Origin: Streptomyces africanus
GTDB lineage: Bacteria > Actinomycetota > Actinomycetes > Streptomycetales > Streptomycetaceae
Assembly (NCBI RefSeq): GCF_002150735.1
Contig: NZ_MUKA01000058.1
Span: 28,744 to 92,743 of the forward strand
Length of the DNA: 64,000 bases
Direction of reading: 5' to 3'
A program made the translations under genes and the position numbers. The notes beneath the pieces are model-generated. The model was not told the DNA's origin. It saw nothing but the letters and a program-made list of their open reading frames with translations, and did not search any database. Numbering within the stretch: position 1 is the first letter of the stretch; the number at the start of each line of letters is the position of its first letter. Below, in pieces: positions 2,282-45,711 of the stretch.

Positions 2282-5200
2282 TCAGTCCTTCGCGTAGCAG
2301 GAGGCCCAGTCACGGGCCGCTTTGGAGGCCCCGGCCGTGATCGGCACGCCCTTGAACTCGAACGTGAACGCCTCCAGCACGGCCTCCTTGACGCCCTCGG
2401 CCATGTGTTCGGGGACGCACAGGACGACCTCGTCGTGCACGACGCAGCGCAGCCACTCCAGGGCCTCGGGGATCATGTCGACCAGGCGCAGCAGCGCCTC
2501 GCACATGATGTCCCGGGCGCCGCCCTGGCCCATGAGGGCCGGGGCCTGCGTCCAGGCACGGTCGGGGTTGCAGCGCATCTTGCGACCGAACCCGTTGTCC
2601 AGCATCTCGCCGGCCGCCGCCCGTTCCCGGACCTCGGTCCGCCAGGCGCACAGCCCGGGGTACTGCGCGTTCATCTGGTCGTCGAACTTCTGCGCCAGCT
2701 CCAGCTCCACACCGCTGTTGGCGATGCCCTTCACGGACATGCCGTAGTTCCAGCCGTGGCCGATGCGCTTGGAGTTGTCGCGCCACTCGCCATCGTGGCG
2801 GCCGAACACGGCATCGGCGATGCGCGAGTGGGCGTCTTCGCCGGGAGCGAAGTTCGCCATGTACGCCGGGTCCTGGCAGTGCCCGGCGATGGCGCGCATG
2901 TCGACCTGGTCCAGGTCGAAACAGATCAGGACGTGGCCGTCGTCGGCGATGAGGGGTCGCCTCTGCGTGACCTTGCCGCCGCGCTTGGCCATGTTGGTGA
3001 CCGAGGGGCGGACGTACGCCCACCGGCCGGCGCCCTGAAGGTCGCCGACCTGCGGGTGGATCCGGTCGCCGACGAGGTGGTCCATGATCTCGGCGTACTT
3101 CTGGACCGACGAGGTCACGGTGATGATGTGGCCGCACATCTCGCGCAGGGCGTCTACGTCGGCGCCGCGCTCGGCGAACATGCGCAAGACGTTCGGGTTG
3201 AGCATGGCGGGCACCTGCCGGGCCCCGGAGCCCTTGCCCACCATGTACGACGCCTCGCCCAGCGCGTCCTTGTTGAGGCTGATCAGCCCGGAGGCCGTCT
3301 TGGGGTAGTGCACCGCACCCCGGTCGGCGAAGGCCTTGATGATCGCCTCACGGCCTTCGTTGGTGGACAGCGGGGCCTTGACGGACTCGTCGGTGAAGAC
3401 GCGGTTCTTGCCCCGGCCCCTACCGACGGACTTGGTCAGGGGTACGCCGCAGTGCTCGTGCAGCCACTCCAGGGACTCCTGCCGCTTGGCCGCCTCCGCG
3501 TCGACCAGCTCGCGCAGGACGGGGACGTCGACCTTCCAGCCGGTCAGGGTGGGCCGGTGCTGGATGTGGGCGACCCGCATCTCCCGGCGGACGTAGTCCG
3601 AGGGCTCGCCCAGAGCGCGCCGCACGCCCCGGGTGGCCTGGAGATCGCCGCTGAAGTACACGCTCAGCTCGTTGACCGGGATGCGCCCGTACCCGAGGTC
3701 CGTGCGCTCGGCCTTGTCCAGTTTGCGGCCGCCGGCCTCCTCCGGACCGTACTTGAAGGCGAGCGCGGCCAGGTCGTCCGTCTTGCCGGGCAGGCCGTTG
3801 CGCTCGGCTACCTGGTCCAGGCCGTAGTAGCCCTTGGTCGCCCACGGCTTCTCGTGCGCGGCGCCGGGCGGGTCGATGGTCTGGACCCACCGCAGGGTGT
3901 CCATGGTCTTCGCGGCCAGCTTGTCGTAGTCGGCGCCGTGGTGACGGGCGAGCGCCATCAAGTCGAACCCGAGCAGGTTGTGGCCGTACAGCTCGTCGGC
4001 GTCCTCCAGCCGCTTGATCAACTCCTCCACGGAGTTGACGACGACCTCGGTGCCGTCCTCGGTGACGTAGCCGGCGAGGCGGACGTACGGGTCGCCTCCG
4101 AGATCCTTGTGGACGAACAGGCGCTTGGCGCTGTGGGTCTCCAGGTCGAACCCGATGACGCCGCCGGCGCGCGGCGGGGTGGCCGCGTCATCCGGAGCCG
4201 GGGACGGGGCGGGGACGGTGGCCGCGCGGGGAGCCTGATCAGCTTCCGCTTCCGCGAACGGATCACCCGCGAAAGGGTCCGCGTCCGGGTCGGTCAGAGG
4301 ACGTGTACCCGCTGTACCCTCTACCCCTGTTCCTCCTATGTGTGAGCCAATTTCTCGGTTATAGGGAGGAGAGGGTACAGGGGGTACACCATTGTCCTCG
4401 GTGGGGTTGACCTCGTCTTTTCCGTTCGGGTCCTGGAAGCGCACCCCGAGCCACGCCTGGTAGTTGACGCCCTTGGGCTCGTGACCGCCCAGAGTCGATC
4501 GCCCGTCCCGCGCCCGGATCTTCTTCCGCTGCACGCCGTTCCGCGCGCACTCGTCGTGGCTTCCGAATCGGGACACGAACGTGCGGTCCGTCCATTCCCG
4601 GTGACCTTTGTCCTCCAGGTACCGGTTGAAGACCTCGTGCAGCTCCCGGGCGAGGATGTGGGAGTTCCAGTCGAACGTCAGGCAGTCCCCGATGAACGAC
4701 AGAATCAGGTCCGACTCCTTGCGCCACTCCAGCGTGTCGTCCTCCACCCGCTTCGGCGGCGGCGGCATGATCTGTCCGGCCGCGTACCACTTGCGGGCGC
4801 CCTCCACGGCCCACGCCAGGACGGCCGCCGACACCCGCTCATCCGTCGCGAGGCGCTGCCGCAGGGTTCCGTCACCGGGCTTGTCATTCGGGCCCGTGCA
4901 CGGCTCCCCAGCCTTGCGGAAGGTGAACGGGAAGCACAGCAGCGCCAGACGCCGCCACGTACCGTGGTCGGTTTCGTCCACCAGAGGCCTGTGGTTCGTG
5001 TTGATGATCAACGTGTGCGACGTCGTGAAGGTGACCGGGTCCTGCCTCATCCGGCGGGCCTTGATGGCCTTCGTACCGGCGAGCTGCTTGGCCCGGTTGA
5101 CGTCCAGTCGCTTGGCCTCCGGGGTCTCCTCCAGTACCGCGAGCCGGGCCCCCATGAAATCCATCATCTCCGTGGGGTGGTTGTCGCTTGCGTTCCCGAG

Positions 5201-6619
5201 CAGGGCCCGGTGGGACACCACTGTGTGGTATCCGTCCTTCTCGCCGGCCGCGCGGGCGAGCGCGTCCATGACCGTGCTCTTGCCGTTGGAGCCGCCGCCC
5301 TGGAGCAGGAGGATGATGTCGTCTGGGGGGATGTGGCCGGTGAGCGCCTGCCCCATTCGGAGCTGGAACCAGTCGATCACGTCATCCGGCACGGCCTCCA
5401 GAGCCTTGTCCCAGTCAGGGTGCCGGGCGCCCGGGACATAGTCCGCCTCCGTGATCTTCGTCATGAGCCGGTCGGGGTCATGCGGCGTGAGCACGCCGGT
5501 GCGCAGGTCCAGGATGCCGTTCTGGCAGTTGAGCGCGTCAGGGTCGTAGTCGAAATCCGCCGCGTGAGCGACCAGACTGCCCTTGGACAGCTTCATCAGG
5601 TTGCCCAGCTTGGACGCGGACAGGGCCCCGCGCCAGCCGTCCATCTCCGCGCGGTAATCCTTGCTCGGCTCGGCGCGCTGCTTGTCCAGCACCCGCTGGA
5701 ACCCGGAGAGCGCCCATTGGCGGATCTCCTCCAACACCACCGGCTCGGGGCACTCGCCCCAGGTCTTGCCGTTCCAGCGCATCCACCCGAGGCCGTACGC
5801 CCAGCGGTACGTGCCGTCCAGAGCTTCGGAGCACACGGTGTCGGCGAGAACGGCGTCACTGAATGCCGCGTCGCGGGAGTTGTCGCTGGGGGTCTCCCGG
5901 GTGGCTGCGTCGCGCAGACCCTCAAGCGTTCCGCCGGCGTGGAAGTAGTCGTCCACGCCCTTGACGGCCTGGCCGTCGACTTCCTCTGGGACGATCAGAT
6001 ACCGGATGTCGGCAGCACCCTTGGACTCCAGCCACGCCCCCAGCCGCCGCATGGCCTTCAGAACGCTCATGTTGTGGCGCGCGTCGGAGTCGAAGCAGAT
6101 CACGACTGTGCGGTCCTTGAGGGGGATGTCCTCCCAGTCGCCGAGGGTGCCGTGTCGTGCACGCCAGTTGTAGACGCCCGAGATGGTGACGACTGGAAGT
6201 CCTTTGGACGCTAGGCAGTCCGCCTTTTTCACACCCTCGGTGATCCACAGAGGCGCCGAGACGGTACGGACAGCAGTCGCCATCAGCGGCGGTACGTCCA
6301 GGCGAGCTTTGCCGACCGCAGCCGCGTACTTCACAGGCTTCTCATCGCGCACCTGCGGCTGGCCGGGCTTGAACATTGCGCCGATCTGCTCACCGGTTAC
6401 TCGGTAGATCGGGATGAACAGGCCCGGGAACGCCGTGTCTTCGCGCCAGGCCCACACCGGAATGGACGCCTCGCGCAGCCGCGCGCGGTCCTCGTCGGTG
6501 CCGTACAGCGTCTCGTACCCGCGAGCGTCGCGGATCTCCGGGGCGATCTCGCTGGCGTCCAGTTCCGCCAGGTGGTGATCTGACAGCTGCCCCGCGTTCG
6601 CTTCCACGTACGTGGTCAT
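2282..6619 (-). CDS. Primase-helicase-family A DNA polymerase fusion, 1445 aa
   Basis: A single uninterrupted frame joins three replication activities. Residues about 120-220 look like a Toprim/DUF3854 primase region (ITEGVKKADC, ICFDSDA). Residues about 270-640 match D5/P4-type SF3 helicases, with Walker A GGGSNGKST near 443. A linker (about 730-810) is followed by a DnaQ/PolA-type exonuclease with GFDLETH, HNLLGFD and YFSGD (exo I-III), then a family A palm with FDLDQVDMRA (motif A), KRIGHGWNYG (motif B) and VHDEVVL (motif C). All catalytic acids I can identify are present, so polymerase and proofreading should be active. The start at 6619 follows two tandem GACCAAGGAAGCA leaders. These parts are usually separate phage proteins; here one chain would prime, unwind and copy DNA. 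The linker contains a palindromic element (see 4303). Confidence 0.92.
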   Translation of the reverse strand: MTTYVEANAGQLSDHHLAELDASEIAPEIRDARGYETLYGTDEDRARLREASIPVWAWREDTAFPGLFIPIYRVTGEQIGAMFKPGQPQVRDEKPVKYAAAVGKARLDVPPLMATAVRTVSAPLWITEGVKKADCLASKGLPVVTISGVYNWRARHGTLGDWEDIPLKDRTVVICFDSDARHNMSVLKAMRRLGAWLESKGAADIRYLIVPEEVDGQAVKGVDDYFHAGGTLEGLRDAATRETPSDNSRDAAFSDAVLADTVCSEALDGTYRWAYGLGWMRWNGKTWGECPEPVVLEEIRQWALSGFQRVLDKQRAEPSKDYRAEMDGWRGALSASKLGNLMKLSKGSLVAHAADFDYDPDALNCQNGILDLRTGVLTPHDPDRLMTKITEADYVPGARHPDWDKALEAVPDDVIDWFQLRMGQALTGHIPPDDIILLLQGGGSNGKSTVMDALARAAGEKDGYHTVVSHRALLGNASDNHPTEMMDFMGARLAVLEETPEAKRLDVNRAKQLAGTKAIKARRMRQDPVTFTTSHTLIINTNHRPLVDETDHGTWRRLALLCFPFTFRKAGEPCTGPNDKPGDGTLRQRLATDERVSAAVLAWAVEGARKWYAAGQIMPPPPKRVEDDTLEWRKESDLILSFIGDCLTFDWNSHILARELHEVFNRYLEDKGHREWTDRTFVSRFGSHDECARNGVQRKKIRARDGRSTLGGHEPKGVNYQAWLGVRFQDPNGKDEVNPTEDNGVPPVPSPPYNREIGSHIGGTGVEGTAGTRPLTDPDADPFAGDPFAEAEADQAPRAATVPAPSPAPDDAATPPRAGGVIGFDLETHSAKRLFVHKDLGGDPYVRLAGYVTEDGTEVVVNSVEELIKRLEDADELYGHNLLGFDLMALARHHGADYDKLAAKTMDTLRWVQTIDPPGAAHEKPWATKGYYGLDQVAERNGLPGKTDDLAALAFKYGPEEAGGRKLDKAERTDLGYGRIPVNELSVYFSGDLQATRGVRRALGEPSDYVRREMRVAHIQHRPTLTGWKVDVPVLRELVDAEAAKRQESLEWLHEHCGVPLTKSVGRGRGKNRVFTDESVKAPLSTNEGREAIIKAFADRGAVHYPKTASGLISLNKDALGEASYMVGKGSGARQVPAMLNPNVLRMFAERGADVDALREMCGHIITVTSSVQKYAEIMDHLVGDRIHPQVGDLQGAGRWAYVRPSVTNMAKRGGKVTQRRPLIADDGHVLICFDLDQVDMRAIAGHCQDPAYMANFAPGEDAHSRIADAVFGRHDGEWRDNSKRIGHGWNYGMSVKGIANSGVELELAQKFDDQMNAQYPGLCAWRTEVRERAAAGEMLDNGFGRKMRCNPDRAWTQAPALMGQGGARDIMCEALLRLVDMIPEALEWLRCVVHDEVVLCVPEHMAEGVKEAVLEAFTFEFKGVPITAGASKAARDWASCYAKD
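4303..4389. repeat. 87-bp inverted-repeat element inside the replication gene linker
   Basis: 20-bp arms (4303-4322 and 4370-4389) differ at one position and read GTGTACCCGCTGTACCCTCT; each arm holds two TGTACCC units. It lies in frame in the linker between helicase and polymerase. A second copy with the same arms, and a matching CTCCCTATAAC segment, is at 53014-53098 in the opposite orientation. It behaves like a small dispersed inverted-repeat (MITE-like) unit; no transposase is seen. Confidence 0.8.
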
Positions 6620-8289: not shown

Positions 8290-8738
8290 GCACCAGCGAC
8301 GAGCAGTACCGGGTCCTGTACTTCAAGGACGGCGAGGACGCGTTCACCGAGCCGGAGTCACTGGACGACGCCAGGGCGACCGCGCAGCGGCTGGGGAGCG
8401 AGGGCTACGACGTCAGCGCAGTCATGGGTGACGTCGCCGCCCAGGGCTACATGCACGCCCGGCAGAACGGCCCGGAAGGGTCCGACCCGTTCGGACCCGG
8501 GCCGGACCTGATGATGTCCCGCGAGACCGCTGATCTCCTCCTGCGGGCAGTCACCGGCCTGCTGGACGAGGGCTACTGGCCGAAGGCGTACACCGGCTAC
8601 GGGCCGGACGACACCGACGAGAAGGACTACGACACCGCGCTGGTGCGCAGGGCAGCCGACATCGTCGGCCGCGACCGGATCAAGAACCGGGGACTGCTGG
8701 AGCACCTCGCCGAGCTGGACGCGGAGGTCGACGGATGA
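8286..8738 (+). CDS. Hypothetical protein, 150 aa
   Basis: GTG start overlapping the previous stop by 4 bp, and its own TGA overlaps the helicase ATG. Acidic, alpha/beta N-terminus (YRVLYFKDGEDAF) and helical C-terminus. Not recognised. Confidence 0.7.
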   Translation: MSTSDEQYRVLYFKDGEDAFTEPESLDDARATAQRLGSEGYDVSAVMGDVAAQGYMHARQNGPEGSDPFGPGPDLMMSRETADLLLRAVTGLLDEGYWPKAYTGYGPDDTDEKDYDTALVRRAADIVGRDRIKNRGLLEHLAELDAEVDG

Positions 8739-10372
8739 GCCAGACGCTCCAGCTCCGTCCATACCAGCGCGAGTGCATCGACGCGATTCAGGCGGCATGG
8801 GCCGACGGGATGCAGCGGCCGGCCGTCGTGCTCGCCACGGGCATGGGCAAGACCGTCGTGTTCTCCCGCATGGCGGCCGAGCACGTCGAGTCCGAGGGCA
8901 CGCGCGTCGTCATCCTCGTGCACCGTGACGAGCTGGCCGACCAGACGATGAACAAGCTGAAGCAGACTGAGCCCGGCCTGTTCGTCGGCAAGGTGAAGGC
9001 GGCGGCCGACAACATCGCGGCCAACGTCATGGTCTGTTCGGTGCAGACGCTCGCCCGGGAGAAGCGCCTGCACCGGCTGCTCGACTCGCAGGAGAAGTGC
9101 GGCAAGGTCGGCCTGGTCATCGTCGACGAGTGCCACCACGCGGCGGCCGAGAGCTACCGCAACATCCTCGCCGCGCTCGGCTGCTACAGCGGGATGCCGG
9201 GCACGAAGGCCGTGGGCTTCACCGCGACGCTCGCCCGGGGCGACGGCCAAGGCCTCGGCGACGTGTGGGAAGACGCGGTGTTCACCCGCTCCCCGCTGTG
9301 GGCCATGAGCCGGGGCTTCCTGGTCGACGTCAAGTCCAAGCTGATCGACGTGGACACCCTGCACCTCGGCGACGTGAAGAAGTCCCGGGGTGACTACACC
9401 GCATCCTCTCTGGGCGACGCGATGATGGAGGCCGGCGGCCCGCAGATCATCGCCAAGGTGCTTCAGGAGCACGCGGCCGACCGGCGCAGCCCGATCGTCT
9501 TCACCCCGACGGTGGAAGTCGCACGAGCGACGGCCGAGGCCCTGCCCGACGCGGCGTACGTGCACGGCGGTACGCCCCGCGAGGAGCGGCTGAACATCTA
9601 CCGCCGGTTCCGCACCGGCGAGGTCCGCACGCTGGTCAACTGCATGGTCTTGACCGAGGGCGCCGACTTCCCTTTCTCCGACTGCGCGGTGATCGCCCGG
9701 CCGACGAAGTCCGAGCCGCTGTTCATACAGATGGTCGGCCGGGTCCTGCGGCCCTCCCCCGCCACCGGCAAGGCGGACGCCCTGGTGCTCATCCTCGCCG
9801 GCGAGGGTGGGTCGCTGTGCACGCTGGTTGACCTGGAGCCCGGGTTCGAGGGCAAGGTGGCCGACGGCGAGACCCTCGCCGACGCCTACGTGCGCGAGGA
9901 GTCCCGCAAGGACGAGAAGGTCCCGGCGGGCTCGCTGCGGTTCGAACTGACGCACCGTGATGTGGATCTGTTCAGGGCCTCGGCCGCCTACTCGTGGCTG
10001 CGCACGAAGGGCGGGATCCAGTTCATCCCACTGGGCGACAACGGAGAGATCCTGCTCTGGCCGTCCCGGGGCGAGGCGGAAAAGTGGGACGTTGCCTACG
10101 CCCCGCCGCGTGGAACCTGGGAGCGGCTGCACGAGGGCCTGGACCTCGGCATGGCGATGGCTTGGGCGGAGACGGAAGCCACGGACCGCAGCGAGCTGAA
10201 CATGACCCGCACGGCGTCGTGGAGGAAGAAACCTGCGTCGGAGAAGCAGACCAGGATCCTGCGGTACGCCGGTCACACGGTGCCCGACGGGCTTCGGGCG
10301 GGCCTCGCCTCCGACCTCCTCGCGGTCACCATCGCGTCGCGCAAGCTGGACCGTTTCCTTCCCCGCTCGTAG
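8735..10372 (+). CDS. SF2 DEAD/DEAH-type helicase
   Basis: 545 residues. Motif order fits the SSL2/RecQ-like SF2 fold: LRPYQRECIDAI (Q-like region), ATGMGKT (Walker A), DECHH (motif II), FTATL (motif III), VHGGTPREERL, TEGADFP (motif V) and QMVGRVLRPS (motif VI). Such helicases remodel branched or duplex DNA using ATP. It ends the coupled operon begun at 7613 and lies next to the exonuclease and putative ssDNA-binding protein, which suggests a recombination or replication-restart role. Confidence 0.93.
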   Translation: MSQTLQLRPYQRECIDAIQAAWADGMQRPAVVLATGMGKTVVFSRMAAEHVESEGTRVVILVHRDELADQTMNKLKQTEPGLFVGKVKAAADNIAANVMVCSVQTLAREKRLHRLLDSQEKCGKVGLVIVDECHHAAAESYRNILAALGCYSGMPGTKAVGFTATLARGDGQGLGDVWEDAVFTRSPLWAMSRGFLVDVKSKLIDVDTLHLGDVKKSRGDYTASSLGDAMMEAGGPQIIAKVLQEHAADRRSPIVFTPTVEVARATAEALPDAAYVHGGTPREERLNIYRRFRTGEVRTLVNCMVLTEGADFPFSDCAVIARPTKSEPLFIQMVGRVLRPSPATGKADALVLILAGEGGSLCTLVDLEPGFEGKVADGETLADAYVREESRKDEKVPAGSLRFELTHRDVDLFRASAAYSWLRTKGGIQFIPLGDNGEILLWPSRGEAEKWDVAYAPPRGTWERLHEGLDLGMAMAWAETEATDRSELNMTRTASWRKKPASEKQTRILRYAGHTVPDGLRAGLASDLLAVTIASRKLDRFLPRS

Positions 10373-17801: not shown

Positions 17802-18103
17802 CGCGGCGAGTGGAGCAGTTCGGATACGTCTACGGCGGAACAGCCCTCATCAAAGGGAAGCCGCACGAGCTGGAGGGAACGGCCTGGTCCCTGGGCCGGT
17901 GCGACGAGGTGCGGCTGCGCGCGGCAGCCGTACGCGAACTGACTCAGTCGCAGAACGTCCCGCTTGAGGGAATCGAGATCACCGACTTCTGGTTCAGCGA
18001 GATCTTCACTGAGAGCGAAGTCAGGCAGAGTACGGAGAGCGCCGACCCTTTCCGTCCTCACGCCGGCCCTGACCCCTTCCGCCCGTGCGGCGGGGACATC
18101 TGA
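17798..18103 (+). CDS. Hypothetical protein with repeated DPFRP tail
   Basis: 101 residues from GTG 17798, overlapping the previous stop by 4 bp. The C-terminal tail repeats ADPFRPHAGPDPFRP, a short duplicated motif. Body is alpha/beta. Not recognised; coupled to the winged-helix gene. Confidence 0.65.
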   Translation: MTRRVEQFGYVYGGTALIKGKPHELEGTAWSLGRCDEVRLRAAAVRELTQSQNVPLEGIEITDFWFSEIFTESEVRQSTESADPFRPHAGPDPFRPCGGDI

Positions 18104-18123
18104 CGGAGGGACAGCGGACAGCG

Positions 18124-18149
18124 AGCCCCTGCGGGAGATCGCAGGGGCT
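18124..18149 (+). terminator. Hairpin terminator
   Basis: AGCCCCTGC and GCAGGGGCT, 9-bp arms, followed by TTTG. Confidence 0.7.
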
Positions 18150-18165
18150 TTGTCGTGCCCCGGGG

Positions 18166-18208
18166 TTGCGCCTCACGGGCCCGGGTAGGATGATTTAAGG
18201 AAATCATC
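18166..18208 (+). promoter_or_regulatory. Promoter with 20-bp operator
   Basis: TTGCGC (18166-18171), 17 bp, GATGAT (18189-18194). The -10 starts the palindrome GATGATTTAAGGAAATCATC (18189-18208, 8-bp perfect arms). Leader GACCAAGGAACGAGGAG follows. Confidence 0.65.
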
Positions 18209-18230
18209 GCGACCAAGGAACGAGGAGACC

Positions 18231-18695
18231 ATGACCGAGCTCAAGACTTCCACCGGCCCCGAGGACCACGCCCTGAGCGCCCTCAACGCGATCACCCGCG
18301 ACGACCCCGAGGCGGCCCGGGAGCACATCCGCGCCCTGTCCTTCCGGGACCGCGCCCTGATCACCGCGTGGGCCGGGGAGTTGTCCAGGCTTGTCCAGGA
18401 CGAACAGGACAACTACGAGATCTCCGAGCGACGGGCCGCTCGCGATCGACACGCGGCTGAAGATCGCGCGGCTACGAGCCGCAAAGTTCTGCGCACACGC
18501 ATCAGCCTCATGTTCGAGGAGTCCGGCGCTGACGCTCCCGCCGTGCGCGTGACCGACTTCGCCGACCTCCGGCAGAGCCGGCCCTGGATCGTCGGCGAAC
18601 TGAAGCAGCTCACCGACGAGGGCGTGCTGGAGCCGGTCCCCGACTACCCGGGGCGGTACGTCGTCCTCAAGGCGCCTGACGGGGACAGCGTCTGA
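18231..18695 (+). CDS. Winged-helix protein ahead of the transfer-like block
   Basis: 154 residues. The N-terminal 95 residues are helical and charged (a basic, coiled-coil-like stretch ERRAARDRHAAEDRAATSR). The C-terminus, VTDFADLRQSRPWIVGELKQ and onward to GVLEPV, matches the winged-helix pattern at the end of the TraB-like protein at 20906. It lies directly upstream of the GGGACA repeat field, which begins inside its last codons. I infer a sequence-specific DNA-binding protein, perhaps for that repeat or as regulator of the block. Confidence 0.7.
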   Translation: MTELKTSTGPEDHALSALNAITRDDPEAAREHIRALSFRDRALITAWAGELSRLVQDEQDNYEISERRAARDRHAAEDRAATSRKVLRTRISLMFEESGADAPAVRVTDFADLRQSRPWIVGELKQLTDEGVLEPVPDYPGRYVVLKAPDGDSV

Positions 18696-18904
18696 CGGGA
18701 CAGTGGGACAGGGACAAGAGACGCCGAGGGGCTCCGGGACACCGGGGCCCCTTCGTCGTGTCCCGGGACAACCGGCCGTCGGGACAGAGCGAGCGTGTCC
18801 CCGGAGGGACACGGGACAAGGGGACAGATCGGCCCGTGTCCCGCCGGGGACATGTCCCGGGACAAATGTTTGCCGGGGCACGGGACAAGGGGACAGATCA
18901 GGTG

Positions 18905-18925
18905 TACGATGATTTAAGAAAATCA
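18905..18925 (+). promoter_or_regulatory. Operator/promoter before the Spd-like gene
   Basis: TACGATGATTTAAGAAAATC with a TACGAT -10 (18905-18910); a relaxed copy of the palindrome. No good -35; GGGACA copies occupy that place. Confidence 0.5.
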
Positions 18926-18967
18926 GCACCGACCAAGGAATCGTGACCAAGGAAGAGAGGACAGACG

Positions 18968-20206
18968 ATGTCCCGCATGTCCCGTCAGACGGCCGCCACC
19001 GTCGGGCTCCTTGTCCCGGCCGCACTGGCCCTGACCATGTCCGCCGACACCTCGTACCGCTTCATGGAGACGGCGCTTCAGATCACCGACGAGAACGAGC
19101 GGATGGCCCTGTGCGGCGTCGCCGAGGCGGCCATCATCGCCCTCACGGTCTACTCCTGGGCTACCCGGACCAAGGGCCCTGCGTACCTCGCCTACGCCGC
19201 CGTCCTCGTGCAGGCCCTCCCTGCCTTCACGGTCTCCGGCAGCGTCGGCGGCCCGGTGCGTGTCGTCCTCGGCCCCGTGCTCCTGGCCGTCCTCCTGCAC
19301 CTGCTCCTGGGCCTTGAGCTGCGGATGTCCGGCGAGAAGTCGACCGGCATCCTGGCCTCCGCCCTGCGTGAGATGCGGGAACGTCTCGTCGCATTCCTCG
19401 GCATCGGCCGGCGCGGCGCCGACAGCGCGGCTATCGCCCGCAGCCGGGCCGCTGACCGTGCCGTAGACCTCGCGGACCGCCTGGAGGGCGCTGAGCCTGG
19501 CAAGCGCAGGCACACCCGCCTGACGGCCAAGCTGGCCGCCCAGATCGATGCGGCCCGCCACGGGCTGGACGCGGACGAGGCCGCAGCCGCCGAAGCAGCG
19601 ATCGTCGCGCGGGTGGTCCGGCGCAAGTCGGTCAAGTCCCTCGCCAACATCAAGTCGCGGCACGACTGGACGTTGTCCCTTGTCCCGGCTGAGGGCGGAG
19701 CCCGGGACAAGGGACACAGCGATGTCCCCGGGGACATGTCCCCAGCGCCGGTTGTCCCGGTGTCCCCTGTCCCCCAGGACGGTGTCCCAGCCGCCGTGTC
19801 CCCCGCGCCGGTTGTCCCCGCGCGTGTCCCGGCGGTCGTGTCCCGTCCTCGCTCGGCTGTCCCCGCCGTGTCCCCCTCGCGTCCCTCGGTCCACGTGTCC
19901 CTGGACAAGGTCTCCGAGTCTGTCCCGGCCGACCGGGACATGTCCCGGGACAGCGCGCGCTACGAGGTGAAGTCGTTCGGGGACATCACGGCCGAAGCGC
20001 GCGGCGAGTCCCCGGACACGGGACAGGCCGTGGTCGATGTCCCCGAGGACCGGCTGGGCAGCGTGGCCTCCGTCGTCCGGTTCCTGACCGAGACGGGACA
20101 CAGCCGGGACGAGATCCGGAGGATTGTCCCGACCCTGCCTCTGGAGAAGCCTGCGGGTGAGGAGGCCTTGAAGAAGGCGATCCAGCGGTGCGGGCCCAAG
20201 GCGTAG
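18968..20206 (+). CDS. Spd/DUF2637-like membrane protein with repeat-encoded linker
   Basis: 412 residues. Residues 1-125 contain about four membrane segments (TVGLLVPAALALTM, MALCGVAEAAIIALTVYSW, AYLAYAAVLVQALPAF, VVLGPVLLAVLLHLLLGL). A charged cytoplasmic helix region follows, then a Pro/Val/Ser linker (about 240-325) whose codons are largely TGTCCC repeats, and a helical end (SVVRFLTETGHSRDEIRRIV) that could be another small HTH. The topology and position, before TraA-like and TraB-like genes, resemble spread/transfer membrane proteins of Streptomyces plasmids and integrative elements. Family assignment is by architecture. Confidence 0.65.
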   Translation: MSRMSRQTAATVGLLVPAALALTMSADTSYRFMETALQITDENERMALCGVAEAAIIALTVYSWATRTKGPAYLAYAAVLVQALPAFTVSGSVGGPVRVVLGPVLLAVLLHLLLGLELRMSGEKSTGILASALREMRERLVAFLGIGRRGADSAAIARSRAADRAVDLADRLEGAEPGKRRHTRLTAKLAAQIDAARHGLDADEAAAAEAAIVARVVRRKSVKSLANIKSRHDWTLSLVPAEGGARDKGHSDVPGDMSPAPVVPVSPVPQDGVPAAVSPAPVVPARVPAVVSRPRSAVPAVSPSRPSVHVSLDKVSESVPADRDMSRDSARYEVKSFGDITAEARGESPDTGQAVVDVPEDRLGSVASVVRFLTETGHSRDEIRRIVPTLPLEKPAGEEALKKAIQRCGPKA

Positions 20207-20241
20207 AACGGCCTTGCGGTCGGCAGCCGACCGCGAGACGC

Positions 20242-20286
20242 TTGATTTAGGTAAAGCCCTACCGGGGACAACCTCGGTAGGGCTTT
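20242..20286 (+). promoter_or_regulatory. Operator half-site running into a hairpin (possible attenuator)
   Basis: TTGATTTAGGTAAA is followed at once by AAAGCCCTACCG ... CGGTAGGGCTTT (20253-20286, 12-bp perfect stem, 10-nt loop). It ends the upstream transcript and lies in the leader of the TraA-like gene. Confidence 0.6.
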
Positions 20287-20324
20287 CGCCCATCAGGAAC
20301 CAGGAATCAGGAAGAGAGGCGGCC

Positions 20325-20891
20325 ATGAGCCGTATCGGAGAGAACCACCCGGACAACCCGTTCAGCGCGGCCGGCCGCGCCAACGGACAGACCAACGACC
20401 AGCTCCGCAACCGGGGACTGGACGGCCAGGGCAACCCCCTGCCGAACAAGAACTTCGCAGGTCAGAAGTCGTTCCGGTCGGGCGGTTCGAGGAACCAGGG
20501 CATCGCCCAGCTCGCCCAATCCATCGGCGACATGGACCTGGCCAACCAGGAAGACCTCCACGCCTTCTGTGACGCGATCAGGAAGATCCTGAACTATTTC
20601 GCGATCTCCGTGGAATTGGCAAAGGGCCAGCTCAAGGCAGCTTCCCGGCAGATGGCGAAGGAGTCTGTTGACGGGCGGCTGACGATGACGCAGCGCGCCG
20701 AACTGGCCAGGGCGCTGTCCATGATGAGCCGCGACCTGGACGCGGTCTCGCGCGCGTGCATCGCCGGAGCGGTCGGCGCGGTCAAGGCCTGGCGCAGGTT
20801 CGACTCGTTCCTGGGCGACCTGGACAAGGGCAACGACTCCAAGTTCACCCGCCCCGGGGGCCGTGGTCGCGGCCCCTTCACCGTGGTGTAG
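20325..20891 (+). CDS. TraA-like plasmid-transfer accessory protein
   Basis: 188 residues. A Gly/Asn-rich N-terminus is followed by a helical core (EDLHAFCDAIRKILNYFAIS, RAELARALSMMSRDLDAVSR, AVGAVKAWRRFDSFLGDL) and a basic, Gly/Arg-rich tail. Short helical proteins of this design (..V/L-x-x-F-C-x-x-I/M-R ... R-A-x-x-V ... F) sit just upstream of traB in Streptomyces plasmids and are annotated TraA. The TraB-like gene begins 15 bp downstream, which agrees. Biochemical role unknown. Confidence 0.55.
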   Translation: MSRIGENHPDNPFSAAGRANGQTNDQLRNRGLDGQGNPLPNKNFAGQKSFRSGGSRNQGIAQLAQSIGDMDLANQEDLHAFCDAIRKILNYFAISVELAKGQLKAASRQMAKESVDGRLTMTQRAELARALSMMSRDLDAVSRACIAGAVGAVKAWRRFDSFLGDLDKGNDSKFTRPGGRGRGPFTVV

Positions 20892-20905
20892 GGGCGGTGG
20901 ACAAC

Positions 20906-22894
20906 GTGTCGAACAGTCACCGCGTGCGCGGATACGCCCTGTTCAGGGTGCCTGAGCGCATCGTCTCGTACGTCCTGCCGTGGGCCATCGTCGTGGCCGT
21001 GTGGCCGCTGACCCTGGTACTCCACCTCGCCATCGGCGACAGCCCGTTGTGGGTGGGCCTGCTCGCCGTCGGGTTCACCTACCTCGCGCATCAGACATGG
21101 AAGATCTGGACGGTGCGCCGCCAGGAGACCCGGAACATGGCGACGGTCTTCGTCGTTGCCGTCCTGACCTGGGCACTCTTCGCCGTGGCGATCCGTCCCT
21201 GGCAAGCCGACATCGTCAAGGCGTGGGCCATCGGCGGCCTCGTCATGTCGGTCGCCTGGTGCATCCGGCACGCGGCCCTGTCGGGCATCCGGGACACCGA
21301 CAAGTCCCCGGAGACCAGCGGAAACGACGGCCTGCTGAGCAAGATCCGGGCGTTCAAGGACGCCAAGGTTGGCAAGGTGACGGAGACCGCCGACGAGCTG
21401 CGCGTCCCGGTCCACCTGGACGCGCCGACCACGGCGAAGGAGGCGCAGGACGCCCGTGAGCAGATCGCGGCCGTCGCCGGTGTGGGCGCTGACCAGGTGA
21501 AAGTCCTCAAGGTCAAAGGCGACGAGAGCAAGGTCAACGTGGCGTTCACCCGGGACACCAGCGACGCCAAGCCGGTCATCTGGAAGGGCCCGAGGCACCT
21601 CGGCAAGTCCATCGCGGACGCGCCGATCTGGCTCGGCGGACGCACCGACGGCTCCGACATCAACTGGTGGATCGTCGGCTCTGAGGACGACGAAAACCCC
21701 AGGCCACTGGCTCACACGAAGTGCACAGGCATGACCGGCGCGGGCAAGACGGAGACCATCTGCACCGCCATCCTCCAGATGCGCGAGCGCACCGACGTCG
21801 TCCCGGTCGTGGGCGACCCTGCCAAGTTCCAGCAGTCGTTCGGCGACATCGAGGAGGTGCTGGGCCTGGCCGCGAAGACCCGGGAGGACACCGAGCAACT
21901 GGTGCGCAACCTCATCCCGCTCATCGAGTACCGAGCCGGCTTGTTCGGCACGCTGACCAGGGCAGACGGCGGCAAGGGCTACAAGCAGTGGGTGCCTGAG
22001 ATGTACACGCTGCACGGCATCCCGGCCATCTTCCTGGACATCGAGGAGGCCGCCGACGTGCTGATGGTCGTGGACGAGGAGGCCGACGAGGCTCTGCGCA
22101 AGCTGCGCTCCATCGGCGTGCACTTCTGCGCGTCGATGCAGACCATGCCGCACGACAACATCCCCCGGAAAACCCGAGGTCAGTTCGCCCAGAGCCTGGC
22201 CCACGGGCAGAAGGAGTTCCAGGACGCAAAGTACAGCCTGGAGGCCGAGACGCTGGAGGCAGGGGCCGACCCGACCAAGTGGGCCAACAACGCGCCCGGC
22301 AGCCTGTATGCCGAGGTCACGGGCACGGACAAGGCTCATTGGCCTGTCGACGGCCGGGCGCCGCGCGTGAAGGCGGCCGACCGTGAGGAGATGATCCGGG
22401 TCACCCGTCCGTACTGGGCGGAACTGGACGAGGGCAGCTACCGCATCCTCTCCCGGGGTATCGCGGACGAGCACGACGGGGCCGCGCCGGCGGCCGTGGA
22501 CCAGCCCTTGGAGGGCACCGTGGACGACGACTTCGCCGAGGTCAGCGGCCTGGATCTGACCAGCGACGGAATCGACACGAGCGAGCCGCTGGCCGCGCCG
22601 AGCGGCCCGGAGGTCACGTTCGCCGCGCCGCTGAACACGAGCCGGATGACCGACGAGGACGCTCGCGCGGAGCTGCTGAACCGCATCGGGATCCTGGCCG
22701 CCGGACCGAGGACCGAGGTCACGTTCGAGGCTCTGGAGGACATCCCGGAGCTGGTCGGCAGGCCCCGTGGATGGGTGTACGGCGAGCTGGAGCAGCTCGC
22801 TGATGACGGCGTGCTGCGCCGGCTCAACCCGCCCACCGAGAAGGCCGTCTACGAGATCACCGGCAGCCTGTACGCGGAGGCCGCCGCCGGGTGA
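20906..22894 (+). CDS. FtsK/TraB-like DNA translocase
   Basis: 662 residues from GTG 20906 (AGGGGCGG upstream; GTG 20897 is the alternative). Residues about 15-120 hold four membrane segments. The motor domain has GMTGAGKTETIC (Walker A, about residue 275), IFLDIEEAADV (Walker B, about 370) and a Gln-containing sensor region (CASMQTMPHD). The last 75 residues (VTFEALEDIPELVGRPRGWV to GVLRRL) form a winged helix like the FtsK gamma domain, which reads short oriented DNA repeats. Membrane anchor, motor and gamma-like domain are the plan of TraB, the single protein that moves double-stranded plasmid DNA between Streptomyces hyphae. The neighbouring GGGACA field is a candidate target. Confidence 0.85.
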   Translation: MSNSHRVRGYALFRVPERIVSYVLPWAIVVAVWPLTLVLHLAIGDSPLWVGLLAVGFTYLAHQTWKIWTVRRQETRNMATVFVVAVLTWALFAVAIRPWQADIVKAWAIGGLVMSVAWCIRHAALSGIRDTDKSPETSGNDGLLSKIRAFKDAKVGKVTETADELRVPVHLDAPTTAKEAQDAREQIAAVAGVGADQVKVLKVKGDESKVNVAFTRDTSDAKPVIWKGPRHLGKSIADAPIWLGGRTDGSDINWWIVGSEDDENPRPLAHTKCTGMTGAGKTETICTAILQMRERTDVVPVVGDPAKFQQSFGDIEEVLGLAAKTREDTEQLVRNLIPLIEYRAGLFGTLTRADGGKGYKQWVPEMYTLHGIPAIFLDIEEAADVLMVVDEEADEALRKLRSIGVHFCASMQTMPHDNIPRKTRGQFAQSLAHGQKEFQDAKYSLEAETLEAGADPTKWANNAPGSLYAEVTGTDKAHWPVDGRAPRVKAADREEMIRVTRPYWAELDEGSYRILSRGIADEHDGAAPAAVDQPLEGTVDDDFAEVSGLDLTSDGIDTSEPLAAPSGPEVTFAAPLNTSRMTDEDARAELLNRIGILAAGPRTEVTFEALEDIPELVGRPRGWVYGELEQLADDGVLRRLNPPTEKAVYEITGSLYAEAAAG

Positions 22895-23142: not shown

Positions 23143-23535
23143 ATGACCAAGGAACTCAACTGCACCGGATGCGGCCTCCAGGCGGTCCACACCCAGACGG
23201 TCCCGCTGTGCCCCCGGTGCGCCCTGGCCGTCGCCGAGGAAGCGTTGGGCGTCGTGTTCGCCGGGCTGCGCAGCGACGACGGGGTGATCAAGTTGCCCGC
23301 TGCGCCGGAGGACCGTATGAGCCCTGCGGAGGCGGACGACGTGACATACCAGCGGCTGTCCGCGCTGCGCCGGAAGGGCGTGAAGCGGGTGACCTACGAG
23401 GACTTCAAGGACTTGCGGGAGATCACAGGCCGGTCCCGGCCGTGGGTCTACCGCTGGCTGGACAGCCGGGTGAAGGACGGCGATCTGATCAAGGACACGT
23501 CGCAGGACCGGGTGGGCTACACCTTCGCGTACTGA
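23143..23535 (+). CDS. Zinc-ribbon plus winged-helix protein
   Basis: 130 residues. CTGCGLQAVHTQTVPLCPRC at residues 6-27 is a four-Cys ribbon. Residues 75-130 (VTYEDFKDLREITGRSRPWV, then YRWLDSRVKDGDLI) repeat the winged-helix pattern of the TraB-like C-terminus. The start codes MTKE through the string ATGACCAAGGAA. It follows the TraB-like gene after a terminator. Likely DNA-binding regulator or target-site partner. Confidence 0.7.
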   Translation: MTKELNCTGCGLQAVHTQTVPLCPRCALAVAEEALGVVFAGLRSDDGVIKLPAAPEDRMSPAEADDVTYQRLSALRRKGVKRVTYEDFKDLREITGRSRPWVYRWLDSRVKDGDLIKDTSQDRVGYTFAY

Positions 23536-44230: not shown

Positions 44231-45043
44231 TCACGGCGTGAGGCGGCCGATCTTCGCGGCGATGGAGGCCACCTGCCGGGCCAGCTCCAGGCCGCGCTCC
44301 CGGTCGGCGGCCAGAGCGTCGGTGACGACCGTGCCGCGCAGGGCCTTGTGCGCGACGCGCAGCGCGGCCAGGCCCTGCTCCAGCCGGACGATGGCACGGG
44401 CCTGCTCGGGCGTGTGCTCCGTCGGCGGGTCGGTCGGTTCGTCCTCGGGCTCGCCGTCCGACTGGCTGGGGATGTAGCGCAGGCGCAAGGCCGCCGCCTT
44501 GAGCGTGGCCGCCGTGACCTTCGGCCCGGCCTGCTTCGCCGCGACGACGACCTCCCGCACGGCCTCCTCGCCGTGGGCGTCCAGGACCGGGCCGAGCATG
44601 CGGGCCTGTGACTCCACCGGCGGCGTGTCGAAAATTTTAGACATGACGAGCATGGCCGGGGCCGCGTCGATGAGCTGATAGGCCCGGCTACGGTCCATAT
44701 CCCACCGGCCGGCGATGTACTCGTCGAACGTCTCGTGGGACAGCTTGAACAGCCCCTCGTCGCGGATTGCGCGCAGAGCCGTCCCCGCCTCCACGACGAA
44801 CCGCGCACGCGCTGCCTTCAGCGACCGGCCAGCGGTCTCCTGAGCCTGGTCGATGGCCTGCTCGAACGCGGCCAGGCGTTCCTCGGCCGTGCCGGTGACG
44901 GCGGCCGGGTCGAGCGGCTTCGGGGCGAATGGGTCATCCCGCTCCACGGGCAGCAGGGGATTGATCGCGTCGTCATCTTCGGCTTTCGCCCGGTCACCCA
45001 GAAGCAGGCTGGTTCGGCTGACACGCTGAGCGGTAGGGCTCAC
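44231..45043 (-). CDS. parB: ParB-like partition protein
   Basis: 270 residues from GTG 45043. A helical stretch (QAIDQAQETAGRSLKAAR) is followed by a DNA-binding HTH (FDEYIAGRWDMDRSRAYQLI) and a conserved region (ESQARMLGPVLDAHGEEAVR) seen in plasmid and phage ParB-like proteins with this HTH. The 5' end overlaps parA by 4 bp. Codons for MSKIFDT carry the 23-bp near-palindrome found also at 30791. It should bind a centromere site and work with ParA to keep a low-copy replicon. The classic chromosomal ParB CTPase motifs are not evident, so it is a plasmid-type version. Confidence 0.75.
   Translation of the reverse strand: MSPTAQRVSRTSLLLGDRAKAEDDDAINPLLPVERDDPFAPKPLDPAAVTGTAEERLAAFEQAIDQAQETAGRSLKAARARFVVEAGTALRAIRDEGLFKLSHETFDEYIAGRWDMDRSRAYQLIDAAPAMLVMSKIFDTPPVESQARMLGPVLDAHGEEAVREVVVAAKQAGPKVTAATLKAAALRLRYIPSQSDGEPEDEPTDPPTEHTPEQARAIVRLEQGLAALRVAHKALRGTVVTDALAADRERGLELARQVASIAAKIGRLTP
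44623..44645. promoter_or_regulatory. parS-like near-palindrome, copy 2, inside parB
   Basis: Identical over 23 bp to 30791-30813; core TGTCGAAAATTTTAGACA at 44626-44643. It is kept in a coding region, which limits synonymous drift and suggests function. Confidence 0.55.
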
Positions 45044-45711
45044 CGGGTCACCTCCCGCAGGAGTTCGTCACCGAGCCGGGCCATGGGGCTGCCAGGCCGC
45101 ACGTCTGGCTTGGTACCGAAGGATTGGGCGTAGCTGCCTCGGCCGTCCTTGCGGGGGATCGTGGTGGTCAGTACCTGGAAGTTGTCGGCCACCAGGTCGT
45201 CCCGGGTCTCTTTGGTCGATGCCGTGTTGGGGTTCGGGTTGACCAGGGTGAGCAGGAACACCGTGCGCGGCGGGGTGAGGCCGAAGTCCCGCATCTGCTT
45301 GTACGCCCGCAGTACAGAACCTGCGCGCTCCATCTCCATCGGCGTCGGCGGCAGGGCGAATACGCACAGATCGATGTTGGCCAGGACAGCGAAGTGGGTG
45401 TTACCGCTGCGGCGGTCCCACGCCCCGGTGTCGATGAGGCAGAGTCCGTGTGGCGGGGTCAGCCGCCGTGCCTCCTCGCCGATCCTCGGTGCGGCCGGAG
45501 CGCGGTAGACCGGTGCGCCGATGTCCACCTTTTCGCTCCAGGTTAGAAGGCTCCCCTTCTCCTTCTCGCCGGGCTCGTCGGCGTCCTGGCCAATGGCCGG
45601 TACGCCGATGGACGCGTAGTAGGCGAGCACGTGCGCCCACGCTGTGGACTTGCCGCTGCCGCCCTTGCCGATGATGCCGATGCGCTTGCCCTCGGCCGGT
45701 AGTCGCGCCAT
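45040..45711 (-). CDS. parA: ParA-type partition ATPase
   Basis: 223 residues. KGGSGKSTAWAHVLAYY near residue 16 is the deviant Walker A (KGGxGKST), CLIDTGAWD near 93 is the Walker A'/B Asp region, and VFLLTLVNPNPNT is the Asn-containing base-binding part. ParA proteins form DNA-bound gradients that pull ParB-parS complexes apart. GGAACAGGGAG precedes the ATG. Together with the ParB-like gene it forms a two-gene operon transcribed against the surrounding accessory genes, as expected if it is expressed in the prophage state. Confidence 0.85.
   Translation of the reverse strand: MARLPAEGKRIGIIGKGGSGKSTAWAHVLAYYASIGVPAIGQDADEPGEKEKGSLLTWSEKVDIGAPVYRAPAAPRIGEEARRLTPPHGLCLIDTGAWDRRSGNTHFAVLANIDLCVFALPPTPMEMERAGSVLRAYKQMRDFGLTPPRTVFLLTLVNPNPNTASTKETRDDLVADNFQVLTTTIPRKDGRGSYAQSFGTKPDVRPGSPMARLGDELLREVTR

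Follow-up and report, generated by a model that had tools for sequence, protein, structure and literature searches.

Which protein reads the dense array of GGGACA/TGTCCC hexamers that accompanies a plasmid-type transfer block on a phage contig of Streptomyces africanus? The window, meaning the whole stretch of DNA analysed (64,000 nucleotides), covers bases 28744–92743 of this 92,743-base contig and carries a Spd-like gene for a predicted membrane protein, a TraA-like gene, and a gene for a TraB/FtsK-like motor with a C-terminal winged helix. Intramycelial transfer of double-stranded DNA depends on Spd proteins, which reside in the membrane (PMC12857230). An interpretation of the window made from its letters (hereafter, the sequence-only reading) had assigned the array to the winged helix of the motor. 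Comparison with related loci points elsewhere: array word and C-terminal tail domain of the Spd-like protein switch together in relatives, so the likely reader of the 51-copy array is this tail and not the TraB-like motor. The protein would thereby tether the phage DNA to the membrane and make it available to the motor.

The GGGACA cluster in and around the Spd-like gene is confirmed as real. The hexamer and its complement occur 91 times in the window compared to 50.9 ± 6.3 in 100 dinucleotide shuffles (maximum, 65). Of these, 51 fall between 18090 and 20271, a density of 23.4 per kb; the remaining 61.8 kb holds 40, or 0.65 per kb, no more than in shuffled sequence. The sequence-only reading had put the number at about 50, which stands, and it had allowed that the hexamer might be equally dense elsewhere, which in the window it is not. 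Array copies occur in both orientations with irregular spacing. Two (18093, 18108) lie upstream of the small winged-helix open reading frame (ORF) WH1, and the 18 copies of array part 1 (Table 1) were recovered as originally counted, except that this 218-bp segment is not wholly non-coding: one copy (18682) is inside WH1, which ends at 18695, and 17 are intergenic. The Spd-like gene (ORF 18968–20206) holds 30 copies, 24 of them within 19668–20030 (array part 2), in the codons of a predicted disordered linker, and one further copy (20265) sits just ahead of the TraA-like gene. With zero copies in the TraA-like gene and two in the TraB-like gene (21291, 21552), the description of the entire block as saturated holds for 18090–20271 and not for the genes downstream. 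Protein sequence or codon use as the cause of the in-gene array was ruled out by 1000 synonymous shuffles of the Spd-like gene (30 copies observed; mean, 5.4; maximum, 12), and the excess also exceeded a null built from the best of all hexamers (z of 9.7 compared to ≤3.9 in 300 shuffles). The TraB-like gene, the TraA-like gene, WH1, and four other window genes did not rise above this null; one of the last four, at 8735–10372, came close to doing so (3/300).

A protein-alignment search produced 42 viral loci with a TraB relative, including the window's, of which L025 was set aside for having hardly any upstream sequence. The array was carried by a membrane gene near the TraB-like gene in 29 of the 42 (weakly in the hexamer scan for L033), and in-gene hexamers exceeded all 1000 synonymous shuffles in 31/31 membrane genes, with words that were chosen from the same loci and the best-of-all-hexamers null applied to part of the genes. 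The array word itself varies among relatives (NGGACA, GAGAC, GARAGC, and TGAGCC). The window and most of its closest relatives have GGGACA, and other loci have AGGACA, CGGACA, TGGACA, TGAGAC/GAGACG, or TGAGCC; the word in L013 and L014 is GARAGC, though their TraB proteins are 79 and 78% identical to that of the window. For 12 distant TraBs that were set aside (L041–L052), the hexamer scan returned no consistent array, with the exceptions of AGACCA in L044/L045 and TGGGAT in L047; among these 12, a membrane gene was sought in L044 and L047 only.

Hexamer-profile similarity was compared to the similarity of four protein parts across 28 loci, including the window's and leaving out L027 as a near copy of L024, using Mantel and partial Mantel tests. 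The tail domain of the membrane protein correlated with the hexamer profile (r = 0.57), and the correlation persisted with the other three parts controlled (partial r = 0.43, 0/5000 permutations) and with the tail's own coding DNA excluded (partial r = 0.39, 0/5000). Partial correlations were −0.02 for the membrane domain and 0.10 for the TraB body (732/5000). Nearest neighbours by tail shared the same array class in 27/27 loci, compared to 23/27 for the membrane domain, 23/27 for the TraB body, and 22/27 for the winged helix, where the classes were named from the same loci and L036, a class of its own, is outside the 27. Overall, the array word tracks the Spd-like tail, and neither the TraB winged helix nor the membrane domain.

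These results bear directly on the possibility that the array is a classical clt read by the TraB-like winged helix, as TraB of pSVH1 reads 8-bp repeats. Published TraB/clt biology, a motor with a winged helix encoded downstream of the array, and a simple correlation between hexamer and winged helix (r = 0.41, 2/5000) would all suit such a site, but the correlation falls to a partial r of 0.04 (1535/5000) once the other three protein parts are controlled. Further, the array lies in and ahead of the membrane gene with two copies in the TraB-like gene, and arrays occur at loci where no TraB was found in the DNA fetched. The natural swaps carry particular weight, since Mantel tests on related sequences overstate certainty. 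The window and L014 have similar winged helices (0.76) and membrane domains (0.75), dissimilar tails (0.07), and no motif similarity (0.00). Conversely, L037 compared to L029 and L040 has a membrane domain similarity of 0.04, with tails at 0.44–0.48 and motifs at 0.63–0.75, and L015 and L035 compared to the window have a membrane domain similarity of 0.04, with tails at 0.52 and 0.30 and motifs at 0.92 and 0.86. One pair weighs against the similarity measure used: the tails of L013 and L014 are alike, yet their profiles cease to overlap once tail DNA is excluded. On the partial Mantel tests and the swaps, the TraB winged helix was rejected as the principal array reader; the assignment made in the sequence-only reading is therefore not supported, and it is improbable that this array is a classical clt, although another clt may exist for the winged helix.

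The tail-to-word relationship was carried over to 21 further loci taken by their membrane domain only. The tail resembled a known tail in 12 of the 21, and the predicted core was the best of six compared in 10 of the 12, at a similarity threshold (0.2) set by hand; the 12 predictions represent fewer independent events, because several held-out GAGAC loci resemble one another. Seven of the ten correct predictions came from loci without a TraB in the fetched DNA (L093, L095, L097, L098, L100, L104, and L109), as sought using seven TraB queries at E 1e-8 over up to 5 kb on each side, with some loci ending 1–2 kb from the gene. L083 pairs a TraB 65% identical to the L018 protein with an L040-like tail; GGGACA is not its array word, and its strongest hexamer, GCAACG, is enriched in L040 as well. 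Six loci (L096, L102, L106, L107, L108, and L111) belong to another tail family (DPRC..IRPLYD.. and similar); three of them are modestly enriched in CCCGTC, and the other three lack a clear array.

Two small plasmids share the same gene-plus-array arrangement, with no phage gene annotated in the stretch fetched, and add two further natural swaps. The membrane protein of Streptomyces canus NZ_CP108819 is 79% identical over residues 1–145 and is accompanied by GCGACA, and that of Streptomyces goshikiensis NZ_CP108772 is 74% identical over residues 3–145 and is accompanied by CGGAAC/AGGTTC. In the latter, a DUF87 protein is annotated beside the membrane gene, and the fetched DNA (15.6 of 18.5 kb) yielded no TraB. 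More broadly, relatives of the membrane domain turned up in 42 of 150 same-genus genomes, one of them the genome that contains the window. Loci were given for 30 of these matches, of which 27 besides the window's were readable (L143 and L144 were not), and 17 of the 27 have a gene-internal array (0/200 shuffles at the observed value; narrowly for L136 and L145), with no clear array by the shuffle test in the other ten. For one particular tail, GGGGAC or GGGACC was among the top two hexamers in 10 of 11 loci (L127 has GACCGA), and two same-genus loci with the S. canus-type tail have GCGACA. Three chromosomal members of the family (Table 1), on contigs of 7.5–8.3 Mb, have 52–74 GGGACC plus GGGGAC sites in a single kilobase bin (GGGGACC counting twice) and ≤5 in any other bin of 15 kb; these host copies may be domesticated. 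An apparently WhiB-like ORF, recognised by eye, lies immediately upstream of the membrane gene in L147 and L148. Among other Streptomyces plasmids, ORF 5361–6116 of pSN22 (L069), probably spdB, contains nine GTGAGC compared to 2.2 expected (0/300 shuffles), with further GTGAGC just behind it (about 5600–6400), and spdB of pIJ101 has no such hexamer excess.

The Spd-like protein is predicted to cross the membrane, in keeping with its original designation, and lies 0.7 kb upstream of the TraB-like gene, so that by prediction it has the Spd trait of a membrane protein encoded with traB. Four hydrophobic peaks (residues 8–26, 46–64, 72–90, and 99–117) coincide broadly in position with predicted AlphaFold2 helices (6–37, 42–66, 69–83, and 94–121, with more up to 227). 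The whole-protein model has a mean predicted local distance difference test score (pLDDT) of 66, with values mostly under 50 in the putative linker and 89–94 in the three helices of the tail; folded alone, the tail again forms three helices (mean pLDDT, 79; core blocks, 76–88). At least four hydrophobic peaks of ≥1.3 were present in 27/31 membrane genes, with two or three in L013, L014, L036, and L038, and a stricter count gave 0–3. No convincing family match was obtained in Pfam, NCBIfam, or PHROGs (best Pfam E of 0.017, below cut-off), and no Pfam or NCBIfam match ties the protein to a named Spd family; Pfam gave no match to DUF2637 (PF10935), which relatives in L015 and L033 do match. Fold comparison returned nothing significant for the tail domain or the whole protein, and designed helical proteins that matched the tail profile by sequence were judged chance. 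In L036, DNA-binding helix-turn-helix models of Pfam match the tail of the membrane protein (HTH_24, 22.6 bits; cut-off, 21.9). In L013, the ORF at 8545–9303, which separates the membrane gene from the TraA-like gene, encodes a stretch that by eye is endonuclease-VII-like, fused to a domain weakly like the window tail.

Table 1. Positions of the transfer block, its array, and related features (window coordinates, except where a locus is named).
Feature	Position	Strand	Basis
WH3, small ORF with weak likeness to the TraB C-terminal winged helix	17541..17801	+	NF041214
WH1, free-standing winged helix of the TraB C-terminus type	18231..18695	+	NF041214
Array part 1, 18 GGGACA/TGTCCC copies	18682..18899	.	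site count
Spd-like gene, predicted membrane and helical part, residues 1-228	18968..19651	+	hydrophobicity, AlphaFold2
Spd-like gene, predicted disordered linker, residues 230-352	19655..20023	+	pLDDT, array sites
Spd-like gene, C-terminal three-helix domain, residues 353-412, putative array reader	20024..20206	+	
TraA-like gene	20325..20891	+	NF041213 E 9.7e-4
TraB/FtsK-like motor, 662 aa, C-terminal winged helix	20906..22894	+	NF041214 profile match
Winged-helix region of the TraB-like motor	22598..22816	+	alignment
WH2, free-standing winged helix of the TraB C-terminus type	23143..23535	+	NF041214
ParA-like gene	45040-45711		
Chromosomal membrane-family gene with dense GGGGACC array, L147	7224-8975		
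Chromosomal membrane-family gene with dense GGGGACC array, L148	6055-7839		
Chromosomal membrane-family gene with dense GGGGACC array, L149	7306-8934		

The motor matches the plasmid TraB model NF041214 (306 bits, E 5.3e-91), residues 17–651 aligning to profile positions 4–632 of 639, that is, at full length with the C-terminal winged helix included. This bears out its identification as a TraB/FtsK-like motor and removes the earlier concern that it might match packaging-type families only. As 306 bits is under the equivalog cut-off of 800, the protein is a TraB-like relative and not an equivalog; FtsK chains match it weakly by sequence (E 0.0027 at best). The TraA-like gene, also named in the sequence-only reading, is weakly supported by its profile score (19.2 bits; cut-off, 80 bits) and directly precedes the TraB-like gene, the same position as in the traA-traB order. 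The TraA-like protein was rejected as the array reader: L019, L034, and L039 have arrays, and 12–69 bases separate the end of their membrane gene from the TraB match, too few for an intervening TraA-like gene. WH1 (E 1.1e-4, residues 75–147 on profile 562–634), WH2 (E 4.4e-8, profile 557–627), and WH3 (E 0.011, profile 572–634) resemble free-standing paralogues of the DNA-binding domain of the motor that flank the tra block. A match to WH3 was found in six of nine relatives searched; for WH1, a near-full-length match was clear in L011, L012, and L013 and weak in L035 among 11 relatives searched. WH1 was likewise rejected as the reader: among these 11, L016 has no match and the matches in L015 and L017 are inside the TraB gene only, and all three carry GGGACA.

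The distribution of WH1 also counts against autoregulation, in which the array would be an operator for control of the operon by the tail domain or by WH1. An operator would accord with the 18 copies directly upstream of the membrane gene and with a winged helix encoded just upstream; it accords poorly with a total of 51 copies, 30 of them within coding sequence, with a large non-coding share of the L014 array lying downstream of the gene, and with GGGACA arrays in L015, L016, and L017 despite the lack of a separate WH1 match. Autoregulation is thus rather improbable.

By its gene content, the window contig is a phage genome, as the sequence-only reading had proposed, and probably a phage-plasmid: a gene is split between its ends, and a ParB homologue and a ParA-like gene accompany the phage-gene homologues, but it encodes an integrase too. 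An identical TraB-like gene occurs on an IMG/VR contig of the same 92,743 bases, classed there as virus. Compared to pS1D4-14.2 (locus L013), a 98.8-kb Streptomyces record with phage genes in its annotation, the contig has homologous genes for the terminase (81% identity), portal (72%), major capsid (81%), and tape measure (55% over part, with a PHROGs match as well), as a tailed phage would, in addition to an integrase (87%), a ParB (68%), and a P4-type primase (82%). A single gene is divided between the two contig ends (C551:3-290 and 92442-92741), which suggests that the molecule is circular or permuted and that the assembly is probably the whole phage genome. Repeats in a phage genome could serve as a packaging (pac) signal or as replication iterons. 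The terminase gene is about 28 kb away on the contig, and the primase gene is at 2282–6619; both small plasmids, without an annotated phage gene in the fetched stretch, share the gene-plus-array arrangement, which makes a packaging signal, and likewise the use of the motor for packaging suggested in the sequence-only reading, unlikely. For the array as pac or iterons, the chance is very slight.

The strongest rival, though less likely than not, is a centromere-like stability site, in which the membrane protein tethers or spaces copies of the element and transfer is secondary. In its favour, the sites are many and clustered, array-bearing relatives are present on chromosomes, SpdA2 of pIJ101 has its binding site within the gene that encodes it and influences stability (PMC4170104), and the roles of Spd1 and ParABS are likely redundant in SLP2 (PMC13245405). 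Conversely, the element has a ParB homologue and a ParA-like gene elsewhere, and the membrane gene is 0–1.3 kb upstream of the TraB match in 29 TraB loci, which were chosen by their TraB with the membrane gene sought upstream of it. Stability and transfer may be two aspects of one function.

For the tail domain as the likely reader, we infer every step of the mechanism beyond the covariation. The tail would bind GGGACA hexamers, and tens of sites in about 2 kb would gather the DNA of the element into a dense focus anchored at septal or tip membranes. The DNA would then be handed over to the double-strand translocase encoded nearby, the TraB-like motor, which would pass double-stranded DNA through septa or on to a neighbour, such that a prophage-plasmid would spread through the mycelium without lysis.

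Several parts of this arrangement are known: TraB, clt, Spd, and the conjugative plasmid-phage pZL12 have all been described in the literature consulted. Similar to the TraB/clt systems of pSVH1, pJV1, and pIJ101, the window combines an FtsK-like membrane motor with a winged helix, a TraA-like neighbour, and clustered cis repeats. Unlike in those plasmids, the repeats number in the tens inside and beside a membrane gene, covary with its tail instead of the TraB winged helix, and belong to a phage. The predicted membrane location and the proximity to a TraB-like gene recall Spd proteins such as SpdB2 of pSVH1, which binds DNA and interacts with TraB (PMC4170104); the DNA binding of SpdB2 is reported as non-specific, and spd genes often form one unit with traB (PMC4170104, PMC12857230), whereas the window family has an exchangeable tail that appears matched to an array. 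SpdA2/sps of pIJ101 also pairs a DNA-binding protein with a site inside its own gene (PMC4170104), but that is one palindromic site with a role in stability and not spread (PMC4170104), unlike the tens of hexamers and predicted membrane anchor found here. As a probable phage-plasmid, the element resembles pZL12 (NC_013420; PMC3583192, PMC4487206), which has an FtsK-like gene (71) and a membrane protein gene (73) that by eye resembles the window protein; pZL12 genes 71–73 have no clear hexamer array, and the window TraB had no tblastn match in a phage collection that includes pZL12. In the titles and abstract openings searched, one paper turned up for DUF2637, and nothing was found that connects GGGACA with Streptomyces, joins phage-plasmids, Actinobacteria, FtsK, and conjugative transfer, or describes a membrane protein with a cognate array, where the pZL12 paper and the 2015 mBio Spd paper fall outside the coverage. 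The literature searched thus held no description of a sequence-specific reader that is anchored in the membrane, has exchangeable tails, and uses its own gene as the array, which does not establish absence from print.

What Spd proteins, which are highly diverse, contribute to mycelial transfer in Streptomyces has long been asked, and the sequence-specific capture of an element's own DNA is a specific candidate. The results also locate a plasmid-type transfer module in a set of viral contigs that reach 99 kb. They further offer a case in which a protein segment seems to owe its amino acids to selection on DNA words, and a tail-domain-to-hexamer code that predicts the array in new loci. Tentatively, and at a little short of even chances, these loci would represent a general DNA-addressing system of Streptomyces, in which membrane readers with exchangeable tails use their own gene and its flank as the address, phages, plasmids, and chromosomes would carry versions with different words, and each anchor would hold the DNA of its own element at the membrane, separate from that of neighbouring elements.

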